Assembly: GCA_002356635.1 (NCBI GenBank)
Contig: CP023454.1
Coordinates: 620,001-684,000 of the forward strand
From: Rhodobacteraceae bacterium QY30
GTDB lineage: Bacteria; Pseudomonadota; Alphaproteobacteria; Rhodobacterales; Rhodobacteraceae
Direction: 5' to 3'
Length of the DNA stretch: 64,000 nt
The notes under the pieces were generated by a model that searched no databases, was not told the origin of the DNA, and saw only the letters and a list, made by a program, of their open reading frames with translations. The position numbers and the translations under genes are program-made. Positions 28,791 to 41,545 of this stretch are shown here, piece by piece. The number at the start of each line of letters is the position of its first letter. Positions within the stretch are counted from its first letter, which is position 1.

Positions 28791-30380
28791 TCAGGGCGAT
28801 GTGGTGTAGCTCACGCCCTTTACATCGGCATCGGGGGCGGTCTTTTCGCGCCGCACCCGCAGGCGGTTCAGCGCGCCGATATAGGCGCGGACGGACGCCA
28901 CGACAGTATCGGTGTCCGCCGACTGGCCCGTGGCGATGCGGCCCTGTTCCTCGACCCTGACCGATACGGTCGCCTGCGCGTCGGTCCCTTCGGTCACGGC
29001 ATGGACCTGATACAGCTGCAGGGTCGCTTCATGCGGGAACAGCGCGTTCACCGCGTTGAAGGCCGCATCGACGGGGCCATCGCCGGTGGTGTTGACCGAT
29101 TTCTCCTCGGCGCCCACCACCATCGTCATCTCGGCGCTGGAGGGTCCAGTGCCGCAGACCACGCGCAGCGATTTCAGTTGCAGGTAATCGCTGTCGGTAT
29201 TGGCCGCCGAATCCTGCAAAAGCGCCAGGATATCGTCATCGTGGACTTCCTTCTTGCGGTCGGCCAGCGCCTTGAACCGCACGAACAGGTCGTTGAGCTG
29301 GTTTTCCGCCATCTCGAAGCCCAGTTCATCCAGCTTTGCCCGCAACGCGGCGCGGCCCGAATGCTTGCCCATCGCGATGTTCTTGGCATGCAGCCCGATG
29401 TGTTCGGGGCGCATGATTTCAAACGTCTCGACGTTCTTCAGCACACCATCCTGATGAATGCCGGATTCGTGCAGGAAGGCGTTCTTGCCGACGATGGCCT
29501 TGTTGAACTGCACCGGGAAGCCCGAGACGGTGGACACGCGCCGCGACAGGTTCATGATCTTGGTCGTGTCGATGCCGGTGCGGTAGGGCATGATGTCGTT
29601 GCGGACCTTCAGCGCCATCACCACTTCTTCCAGCGCCGCGTTGCCCGCCCGTTCGCCCAGACCGTTGATCGTGCATTCGATCTGGCGCGCGCCTGCTTCC
29701 GCCGCTGCCAGGCTGTTGGCCGTCGCCATGCCCAGGTCGTTGTGGCAGTGGGTCGAGAAGATGACCGTATCGGCGCCCGGAACCCGTTCCAGCAGCATGC
29801 GGATCAGGTCCGCGCTTTCGCGCGGTGCCGTGTAGCCGACGGTATCGGGGATGTTGATGGTCGTGGCCCCCGCCTTGATGGCGATTTCCACGACGCGGCA
29901 CAGGTAGTCATGTTCGGTGCGCGTCGCATCCATCGCCGACCACTGCACGTTGTCGCACAGGTTGCGGGCATGGGTCACGGTATCGTGGATCAGCGCGGCC
30001 ATCTGGTCCATGTCCAGATTGGGGATCGCGCGATGCAGCGGCGAGGTGCCGATGAAGGTGTGGATGCGCGGGCTTCTGGCATGCCGCACGGCTTCCCAGC
30101 AGCGGTCGATATCCTTGAAGTTGGCGCGGCTCAGCCCGCAGATGGTCGAGTTGACCGAGCGTTTGGCGATTTCGCTGACGGCGTTGAAATCCCCTTCCGA
30201 GGCGATGGGGAAGCCCGCCTCGATGATGTCGACGCCCATTTCGTCCAGGAGGCCGGCGATTTCCAGCTTTTCGTCATGGGTCATCGTCGCGCCGGGCGAC
30301 TGTTCACCATCGCGCAGCGTGGTGTCGAAGATCAGGACGCGCGGCTGGTCTGCCTGCGCAATTTTCTGTTGGGTCGTCAT
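28791..30380 (-). CDS. leuA: 2-isopropylmalate synthase
   Basis: A 529-residue enzyme condensing acetyl-CoA with 2-oxoisovalerate, the first committed step of leucine synthesis. The catalytic TIM barrel starts with FDTTLRDGEQSPG (about 18-30). The metal-binding HCHNDLG lies near residue 210, GLGERAGNAALEE near 245 and FLHESGIHQDG near 310. A C-terminal leucine-feedback (LeuA dimer) domain covers about 400-520. GGTGAG lies about nine bases before the ATG. Expression is probably attenuated through the leader peptide just upstream. Confidence 0.95.
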   Translation of the reverse strand: MTTQQKIAQADQPRVLIFDTTLRDGEQSPGATMTHDEKLEIAGLLDEMGVDIIEAGFPIASEGDFNAVSEIAKRSVNSTICGLSRANFKDIDRCWEAVRHARSPRIHTFIGTSPLHRAIPNLDMDQMAALIHDTVTHARNLCDNVQWSAMDATRTEHDYLCRVVEIAIKAGATTINIPDTVGYTAPRESADLIRMLLERVPGADTVIFSTHCHNDLGMATANSLAAAEAGARQIECTINGLGERAGNAALEEVVMALKVRNDIMPYRTGIDTTKIMNLSRRVSTVSGFPVQFNKAIVGKNAFLHESGIHQDGVLKNVETFEIMRPEHIGLHAKNIAMGKHSGRAALRAKLDELGFEMAENQLNDLFVRFKALADRKKEVHDDDILALLQDSAANTDSDYLQLKSLRVVCGTGPSSAEMTMVVGAEEKSVNTTGDGPVDAAFNAVNALFPHEATLQLYQVHAVTEGTDAQATVSVRVEEQGRIATGQSADTDTVVASVRAYIGALNRLRVRREKTAPDADVKGVSYTTSP

Positions 30381-30429
30381 GCTATGTCTCTCACCATGTC
30401 CTTGAGCCTTGTCAGTTCGGCGCTGATCA

Positions 30430-30465
30430 CCTCTGAGCGGTCGCGCCGGAAGGCACGCTCAGAGG
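30430..30465 (-). promoter_or_regulatory. Attenuator-type hairpin overlapping the leuL stop codon
   Basis: On the transcript strand CCTCTGAGCG (30465-30456) and CGCTCAGAGG (30439-30430) form a perfect 10-bp stem with a 16-base loop; the 5' arm contains the TGA of the leader peptide. CGGCGC in the loop (30448-30443) is complementary to GCGCCG just downstream (30423-30418), giving a mutually exclusive helix. There is no U-run, so control may act on leuA translation or through Rho rather than an intrinsic terminator. Confidence 0.65.
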
Positions 30466-30551
30466 CGGCTAAGGAGAAGAAGCAGACCACGGGCGACCGC
30501 GCCGCGAAAATTCGCAGCGACTGCAGCAGGAATGGGCCGGGTCCGGGTCAT
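30459..30551 (-). CDS. leuL: leu leader peptide (attenuation)
   Basis: A 30-codon reading frame begins 171 bases before leuA on the same strand. Its codons 23-27 are CTG CTT CTT CTC CTT, five leucines in a row, then Ser-Arg-Leu-stop. Such a run just before a stable hairpin is the hallmark of leucine-sensing attenuation. The use of CTT, uncommon in GC-rich genomes, would sharpen stalling. There is no Shine-Dalgarno. An in-frame TAG lies 12 bases upstream, and a TATAGT -10 lies nine bases before the ATG, so the leader mRNA may begin at the ATG itself. Confidence 0.82.
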   Translation of the reverse strand: MTRTRPIPAAVAANFRGAVARGLLLLLSRL

Positions 30552-30559
30552 GGGCCGCG

Positions 30560-30588
30560 ACTATAGGCAGCGGCGCGGAAAGGAAAAG
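30560..30588 (-). promoter_or_regulatory. Probable leuL-leuA promoter
   Basis: On the minus strand TATAGT (30565-30560) is a good -10 hexamer, with a weak CTTTTC at 17-bp spacing (30588-30583) as -35. Transcription would start at or within two bases of the leuL ATG (30551). Confidence 0.45.
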
Positions 30589-41197: not shown

Positions 41198-41389
41198 CGC
41201 TGCACCCATCGCGGCTTTGGTTCTTGCGGTGCCCGCGGGCGCCCGAAATGCCGGGCCGCGTCAGATCCCGGACGGGTCGCAGCCGCGGTCGTGGGGGCGA
41301 AGGTGAACCGCTGCCTGCAGTGAAAGAGCGTATTCCATTGTATACTCTCTGGACAGCCGGGGGCGTGTCGCGCTAACCAGATGGCGTCA
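41198..41389 (+). promoter_or_regulatory. gcv promoter region
   Basis: The stretch between gltX and the riboswitch. TATACT (41341-41346) is a near-consensus -10 in otherwise GC-rich DNA; the hexamer 17 bases upstream is poor, so the -35 is not assigned. Transcription would start about 41353 and read directly into the glycine aptamers. Nothing else identifiable in the remainder. Confidence 0.5.
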
Positions 41390-41545
41390 GGATCGGGAGA
41401 ACTGGCGGGGCAAATCCCCGGCCGGTGCCGAAGGAGCAACCGCCCCGGTAAACTCTCAGGCGCAAGGACCGTCCTGGCGACGAAGCTCTGGAGAGTGGCC
41501 GCACGGCCCGCCGAAGGGATAACGATCTCAGGCGCCCGCTGGCCG
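41390..41545 (+). ncRNA. Tandem glycine riboswitch
   Basis: Two glycine aptamers in series precede gcvT. Aptamer 1 shows CGGGAGA (41394), GCCGAAGGAGCAA (about 41427) and AAACTCTCAGGCGCAAGGACC (about 41450). The linker leads to aptamer 2 with CTCTGGAGAG (41486-41495), CGCCGAAGGGATAA and GATCTCAGGCGC (about 41509-41535). These are the diagnostic conserved bases of the family. Glycine binding normally turns on the glycine cleavage operon, so glycine is degraded only in excess. Confidence 0.93.

Follow-up and report, generated by a model that had tools for sequence, protein, structure and literature searches.

In the gammaproteobacterial leu operon, a leader peptide with Leu codons precedes leuA, and the leader RNA can adopt mutually exclusive helices. 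This attenuator is collected in Rfam as Leu_leader (RF00512). For the leaders of the leu, his and trp operons, control at the level of transcription is established. In actinobacteria, leuA is preceded by the LEU element (Seliverstov et al. 2005, PMC1262725), which is described as a leader ORF with a run of Leu codons, a base stem between these codons and the leuA Shine-Dalgarno sequence, and an inner pseudoknot or alternative hairpin. According to its section 9, the authors favoured a protein binder, because mutations of the Leu codons in Streptomyces were reportedly ineffective. Two leaders from alphaproteobacteria are also relevant here. The trpL leader of Sinorhizobium meliloti (peTrpL/rnTrpL) resembles the element reported below in that its mRNA starts with the AUG of a leader ORF, but it belongs to trpE and acts as a tryptophan attenuator; that text does not mention leuA (PMC10117765). 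The Caulobacter ilvIH leader likewise provides a leader CDS in front of a branched-chain amino acid operon, but that is another operon and it is termed transcription attenuation, and again leuA is absent from the text (PMC4117421, Fig. 6 legend).

We analysed a stretch of 64,000 nucleotides from Rhodobacteraceae bacterium QY30, called the window in the following, in which leuA is preceded by a Leu-rich leader ORF and three putative helices, P1 (the base stem of the element), P2 and P3 (Table 1). The leader peptide with Leu codons before leuA and the alternative RNA helices are shared with the gammaproteobacterial Leu_leader, but a U-run terminator is lacking. With the LEU element, the alphaproteobacterial element has in common the leader ORF with a Leu-codon run and the gene, leuA. 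A counterpart of the base stem that joins the Leu codons to the Shine-Dalgarno sequence of leuA is clear in a minority of relatives, and P3, which is supported in Rhodobacteraceae and near relatives only, may correspond to the inner pseudoknot or alternative hairpin. Unlike the LEU element, the alphaproteobacterial leader carries its stop codon inside a conserved 10-bp hairpin and has a leaderless-type promoter, and the base stem in the window and most Rhodobacteraceae is set back by 15-24 nt from the leuA start. In Rfam, Leu_leader included, neither the window nor 22 other loci gave a match to the element at the gathering score, and relaxed cut-offs returned an unrelated sub-threshold match only, or none.

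Table 1. Features of the leuA leader region, given in window positions
Feature	Position	Strand	Basis or remark
Leader promoter, -35-like element TTTTCC	30582-30587	-	read directly; T's conserved in aligned promoters
-10 element TATAGT	30560-30565	-	read directly; 8 nt 5' of leader ATG
Leader ORF, 30 codons, probably leaderless	30459-30551	-	translation MTRTRPIPAAVAANFRGAVARGLLLLLSRL, then stop; C-terminal end GLLLLLSRL, then stop
Five consecutive Leu codons, CTG CTT CTT CTC CTT	30471-30485	-	read directly
P1, 5' strand CCTTAGCC	30467-30474	-	over last Leu codons; minimum-energy fold, covariation
P2, 5' arm CCTCTGAGCG	30456-30465	-	holds leader stop codon
P3, 5' strand CGGCGC	30443-30448	-	tip of P2 hairpin
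P2, 3' arm CGCTCAGAGG	30430-30439	-	exact complement of 5' arm, 10 bp
P3, 3' strand GCGCCG	30418-30423	-	exact complement of CGGCGC
P1, 3' strand GGCTcAAGG	30400-30408	-	read directly; minimum-energy fold
Purine-rich GGTGAGAG, likely leuA ribosome-binding site	30388-30395	-	read directly, 7 nt to ATG; role inferred
leuA, 2-isopropylmalate synthase, regulated gene	28791-30380	-	HMGL-like and LeuA_dimer domains above cut-off

A preliminary description of this DNA had pointed to a frame of 30 codons upstream of leuA with five consecutive Leu codons and one more, and this frame is indeed present; the sixth Leu codon (CTC) directly precedes the TGA stop codon of the leader. The TATAGT element that had been noted before the leader ATG is present as well, but its spacing is eight bases and not nine. 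As had also been stated, no Shine-Dalgarno-like stretch is seen in the window 5' of the leader ATG, and a terminator search on the minus strand of the window found no T-run 3' of the leader helices. Two terminator-like GC hairpins with a T-run are located at 30620-30598 (-), just 5' of the leader promoter. A second open frame, 30490-30377 (-), crosses the hairpins, and its stop codon overlaps the leuA start as ATGA, an arrangement that could permit translational coupling. Three leader peptides compared with NCBIfam reached the cut-off of no family, with one sub-threshold match to PsbL (E 0.079), and one leader compared with Pfam gave no match. Elsewhere in the window, at 41384-41480 (+), a glycine riboswitch aptamer was detected with 52.6 bits.

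The three pairings of the preliminary description can be retraced in the window sequence. The arms of P2, a strong and GC-rich hairpin overlapping the leader stop codon, and the two strands of P3 are exact complements, while P1 pairs CCTTAGCC with GGCTcAAGG, leaving one bulged base. P1 and P2 are both present in the minimum-energy fold, and P3 either competes with the tip of the P2 hairpin or makes a pseudoknot. The alternative helices that characterize attenuators in general are predicted here: P1 involves the Leu codons, P2 spans the stop codon, and P3 is an alternative to the P2 tip. The AAGGA at the P1 3' strand ends 18 nt 5' of the leuA ATG. A CRISPR-DR12 match at 30447-30419, which scored 23.3 bits against a gathering score of 37 bits, was rejected and attributed to the hairpin. 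By its fold energy the window element does not stand out, as 19/200 and 9/200 shuffles were as good, and this uninformative measure was replaced by a comparative analysis.

For this comparison, 80 leuA loci were gathered by protein similarity, and in most of them a Leu-rich leader is visible 5' of leuA, with the same anatomy readable in many. A covariance model, R1, was built from 55 elements (that of the window and those of 54 loci). It matches 70 of the 80 leuA loci, including 60 of the 61 best-matching ones (L004-L064); 54 of these 61 had trained the model, six of the other seven are independent matches, and L060 is the sole miss. In a whole-genome search, R1 matched 193 of 198 Rhodobacteraceae genomes, each representing another genus, with two matches in two of the 193 and one in the rest. 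The five misses comprise two genomes with only a distant LeuA homolog (33% identity), one in which a contig end truncates leuA, and another two that have leuA but no recognisable element. In the source genome itself, the sole other match at E<=1 was weak (0.71) and located at a locus without leuA homolog (L085), and it was rejected as a second copy. In three loci, the element is found about 400 nt 5' of leuA (L023:2026-2097, L025:1991-2061 and L047:1990-2064), and in the first two of these an ORF that resembles the cupin type by eye lies between element and leuA, which suggests an operon or an insertion. On a 17.9-kb plasmid of Phaeobacter inhibens, leuA is likewise present, and the element precedes it by about 50 nt (L261:2991-3046); the incomplete gene table of this plasmid holds no leader entry.

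A new sample of 80 elements was then taken from other Rhodobacteraceae genomes among the matches listed, all of them strong, and 75 remained when five duplicates were dropped. Together with 57 earlier elements, a few of which come from near relatives outside Rhodobacteraceae (e.g. Neomegalonema), these form a set of 132. All 75 new leaders contain three to six Leu within the last eight codons (four to six in 74, three in one), and 74 of them start with ATG, whereas L151 offers only TTG. Many leader N-termini read M(T/I/N)xxxHI, a loose pattern that fits 55 of the 75 new leaders, though not the leader of the window. The first ATG that follows the best -10-like box shares its frame with the Leu run in 127/130 elements, and two further elements have none. 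The gap between -10 element and ATG measures 6-9 nt in 121/132 elements when at least four matches to TATAAT are demanded and the search is limited to 5-9 nt, and a freer search (3-12 nt) still placed it at 6-8 nt in 61 of the 74 new leaders with ATG start. In the 121 aligned promoters, T is conserved to 100% at -22 and to 96% at -21 relative to the start of the -10 element. Any AGG, GGA or GAG within 20 nt 5' of the leader ATG was present in 10/56 earlier leaders. Because of the promoter spacing, the leader mRNA likely starts at or next to the AUG, and the leaderless leader proposed in the preliminary description gains support from this narrow distance across relatives.

The covariation counts are inflated by shared ancestry, and they have to be read in this light when P2 is found to be 97.3% paired in the family alignment of 45 sequences. 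When P2 and P3 were taken together in that alignment, 0/500 shuffles matched the percentage paired, the cells changed on both sides or the covariation score, and 9/500 reached the pair types, but pairs with changes in both partners, five in all, did not stand out, since 115/500 shuffles reached this number. Across the class Alphaproteobacteria, with 49 sequences aligned, 96.5% of the P2 cells are paired, both-side changes occur in 7/10 pairs, and on none of five measures did any of 500 shuffles reach these values. TAG takes the place of the TGA stop codon in four rows (L079, L102, L107 and L112), and the P2 partner bases change along with it. Judged from these alignments, P2 covaries class-wide.

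As a plain MAFFT alignment left the P1 3' strand unaligned, this helix was tested by motif classes, by permutation and by swapped arms. Elements with CTTA in the 5' strand carry TAAG rather than TTAG in the 3' strand at a ratio of 42:0, and those with CTAA at a ratio of 1:22, which accounts for the 65 classifiable elements of 132; among these, one is mispaired. The unclassifiable elements show neither 3' motif (54), another 5' arm (12) or both motifs (one). In the 114 of 132 elements that have 30-75 nt between P2 and the leuA start, the own strands pair with a P1 score of 16.07 against a permuted mean of 12.47 and a maximum of 13.39, and in 51 class elements the values are 15.21 against 13.10, with a maximum of 14.38. 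For P3, the own pairing in the same 114 elements scored 20.15, above every one of 5000 permutations (mean 18.19, maximum 19.20), and one P3 pair changes from C-G to U-A in 5/45 sequences. P3 failed as a class-wide feature, as 32 elements outside Rhodobacteraceae gave 14.68 for the own and 14.57 for the permuted pairing; it is supported only in Rhodobacteraceae and near relatives and stands outside the class-wide core. With this qualification for P3, the expectation that the helices are conserved across relatives holds. Loss of the Leu run and the helices in close relatives had been named beforehand as the observation that would count against the reading, and such a loss is not observed. A chance ORF with chance hairpins before leuA, for which only the shuffle range of the window fold energy taken alone could be cited, is refuted by the conservation in 193/198 genomes together with the covariation and retains next to no probability. 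As the element is conserved and shows compensatory changes in P2 and P1, it is, on this comparative evidence, real and beyond chance.

P1 is of fair strength in 84 of the 129 elements with a located leuA start and weaker in 45. The distance from its 3' strand to the leuA start is 15-24 nt in 62 of the 84, at most 11 nt in 11, 12-14 nt in three, and larger in eight. In L006 (13 bp), L035, L057 and L182, a P1 of at least seven pairs takes in an AAGGA that is located 6-9 nt before the leuA ATG. Reading of the rows showed AAGGA likewise paired in such a P1 at this distance in 11/51 class elements, inside and outside Rhodobacteraceae; in L099, for example, TCCTTCGACT pairs with AGTCGAAGGA at 8 nt from the leuA ATG. 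P1 hence shuts the leuA Shine-Dalgarno sequence itself in a minority of elements and the stretch just 5' of it in most, the window included.

At the level of the class, R1 matched 44/385 genomes of Alphaproteobacteria, and a broader covariance model, R2, built from 49 elements, matched 118/387. In a search of 299 Pseudomonadota genomes, for which the number of genomes from outside the class was not printed, all 70 with a match are Alphaproteobacteria. Of the 75 loci fetched from the class and phylum searches, some of which represent one place twice, 74 contain leuA; these loci yielded 51 usable distinct elements, and six gave no anchor. P2 begins with CCCC in most elements outside Rhodobacteraceae and with CCTC within the family. 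By manual count, 36 of 38 Pro-ending leaders outside Rhodobacteraceae end in L[LR]Lx[RCGS]P-stop (the exceptions are L069 and L082), and in 15 of these 38 Leu-Arg-Leu replaces the Leu run, although the way in which these leaders were picked, by a motif admitting Pro, Leu or His and by the models, partly fixes the last codon. A CGA Arg codon is often seen between two Leu codons (L090-L114 and other class loci), and the leader C-terminus outside Rhodobacteraceae is nearly invariant, which seems to exceed the needs of leucine sensing alone.

We think that the element is probably a leucine-responsive, ribosome-mediated attenuator of leuA translation. This agrees with the leucine attenuator of the preliminary description, which is supported by the Leu-rich end of every new leader and by the covariation of P2 and P1. 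In the model, for which we infer the 5' end, the stalling and the level of control, transcription would start at or next to the leader AUG, as the promoter spacing suggests, and ribosomes would enter at the 5' end with no need for a Shine-Dalgarno sequence. When leucine is ample, the ribosome would clear the Leu run and terminate at the stop codon inside P2; after its release, P2 and P1 would reform, P1 would shut the leuA ribosome-binding region or the stretch next to it, and translation of leuA would be weak. A shortage of charged Leu-tRNA would make the ribosome stall on the Leu codons and cover the P1 5' strand and part of P2. P1 could then not form, the freed strand of the P2 tip could pair downstream as P3, and the accessible leuA start would be translated.

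Computed folds are in line with such a course. Averaged over 52 elements, opening the leuA start costs 8.1 kcal/mol if the RNA is free from the Leu run on, 5.2 once the ribosome front has advanced to 12 nt from the stop codon, and 3.8-4.6 further on. For the window, a cost of 8.9 was computed, followed by values of 4.3-7.5 in a non-monotone course; P3 appears in the folds once the P2 5' arm is covered. A ribosome that has reached the stop codon still keeps the cost in the window low, so that closing would depend on release. When the 5' arms were exchanged for those from other species, the opening cost was 5.99 compared with 8.11 for the own arms, with the own value higher in 40/52 elements, which indicates that the seal is specific to the matching 5' arm. 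CTT and CTC make up 32% and 34% of 651 Leu codons in the Leu runs; leuA of the window uses CTG for 35 of its 40 Leu codons and CTT once. Since CUU and CUC are complementary to a purine-rich ribosome-binding sequence, coding and pairing would fit together in these codons.

At which level the leader acts is less certain than its presence. T-rich tails were found after P2 in 1/132 elements and after P1 in 0/84, in agreement with the U-run absence noted in the preliminary description, and owing to this lack of T-runs we judge intrinsic termination unlikely. The translational output that had been suggested appears the likelier one for lack of a terminator, but P1 reaches a well-placed Shine-Dalgarno sequence only in the minority described above. 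This slightly lowers the probability of translation attenuation and raises that of transcription attenuation. In the latter case, the same leader and helices would decide whether RNA polymerase stops before leuA, either in a Rho-dependent manner or at an intrinsic terminator without the classic U-run, and we regard this as unlikely. Leaders with Leu runs classically act on transcription, P2 is of the strong, GC-rich kind, and the approximately 80 untranslated nt between leader stop codon and leuA could load Rho. While the usual position of P1 in Rhodobacteraceae, off the Shine-Dalgarno sequence, fits this explanation too, it leaves the near absence of T-rich tails unaccounted for, and the base stem with the leuA Shine-Dalgarno sequence in a minority of elements would be needless for a terminator.

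Peptide and RNA could also contribute in other ways than by translation attenuation through stalling on Leu codons. A proline codon before a stop codon slows termination, and the Pro-ending motif of the 36 leaders mentioned above would be in keeping with a nascent peptide that arrests the ribosome at the stop codon in a TnaC-like manner, where the leucine state would be sensed. We hold this to be very improbable, because a change of the final residue from Pro to Leu or back goes together with a change of the paired base (CCC/GGG to CTC/GAG), which points to a constraint on the RNA rather than on the peptide. A protein or metabolite that binds the RNA, with the Leu codons serving as pairing strand only, has been proposed for the actinobacterial LEU element and would explain the strong RNA conservation; the Streptomyces mutations that reportedly left regulation intact (PMC1262725, section 9) are the main caution for an attenuation reading of the alphaproteobacterial leader. 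Nevertheless, we consider such a binder quite improbable here, as the reading frame (127/130), the start codon and the promoter spacing are kept, all needless for a pure binding site, and as the run varies among CTC, CTT, CTG and CTA yet stays Leu.

Going beyond the translation attenuator as such, the element could be a class-wide alphaproteobacterial switch, in which the Leu codons are a built-in anti-Shine-Dalgarno sequence, the stop codon lies inside the switching hairpin, and stalling and termination are both read out; in the lineages with L-R-L-x-R-P-stop and few Leu codons, Pro-stop arrest and not Leu-tRNA starvation would be the main sensor. This extension is speculative, and we think it unlikely to apply as a whole.

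Regarding novelty, PMC4833913 and PMC7566282 gave no result for leuA, and no description of the alphaproteobacterial form was found in the literature searched, though older comparative papers on attenuators may contain one. The kind is already known from its LEU-type layout, and the alphaproteobacterial leuA form appears to be new, with a prior description being possible. The element adds a leader site that has no Rfam match (window and 22 loci) and no NCBIfam leader family (three leaders). It gives an entry to the question how leaderless leader ORFs feed attenuation, and to the question whether Leu codons as anti-Shine-Dalgarno sequence have one or two origins, given the same layout in actinobacteria. 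For Rhodobacteraceae, a translated small ORF is predicted in 193/198 sampled genomes, and for the family and parts of the Alphaproteobacteria the element may provide one conserved RNA explanation for the regulation of leuA.
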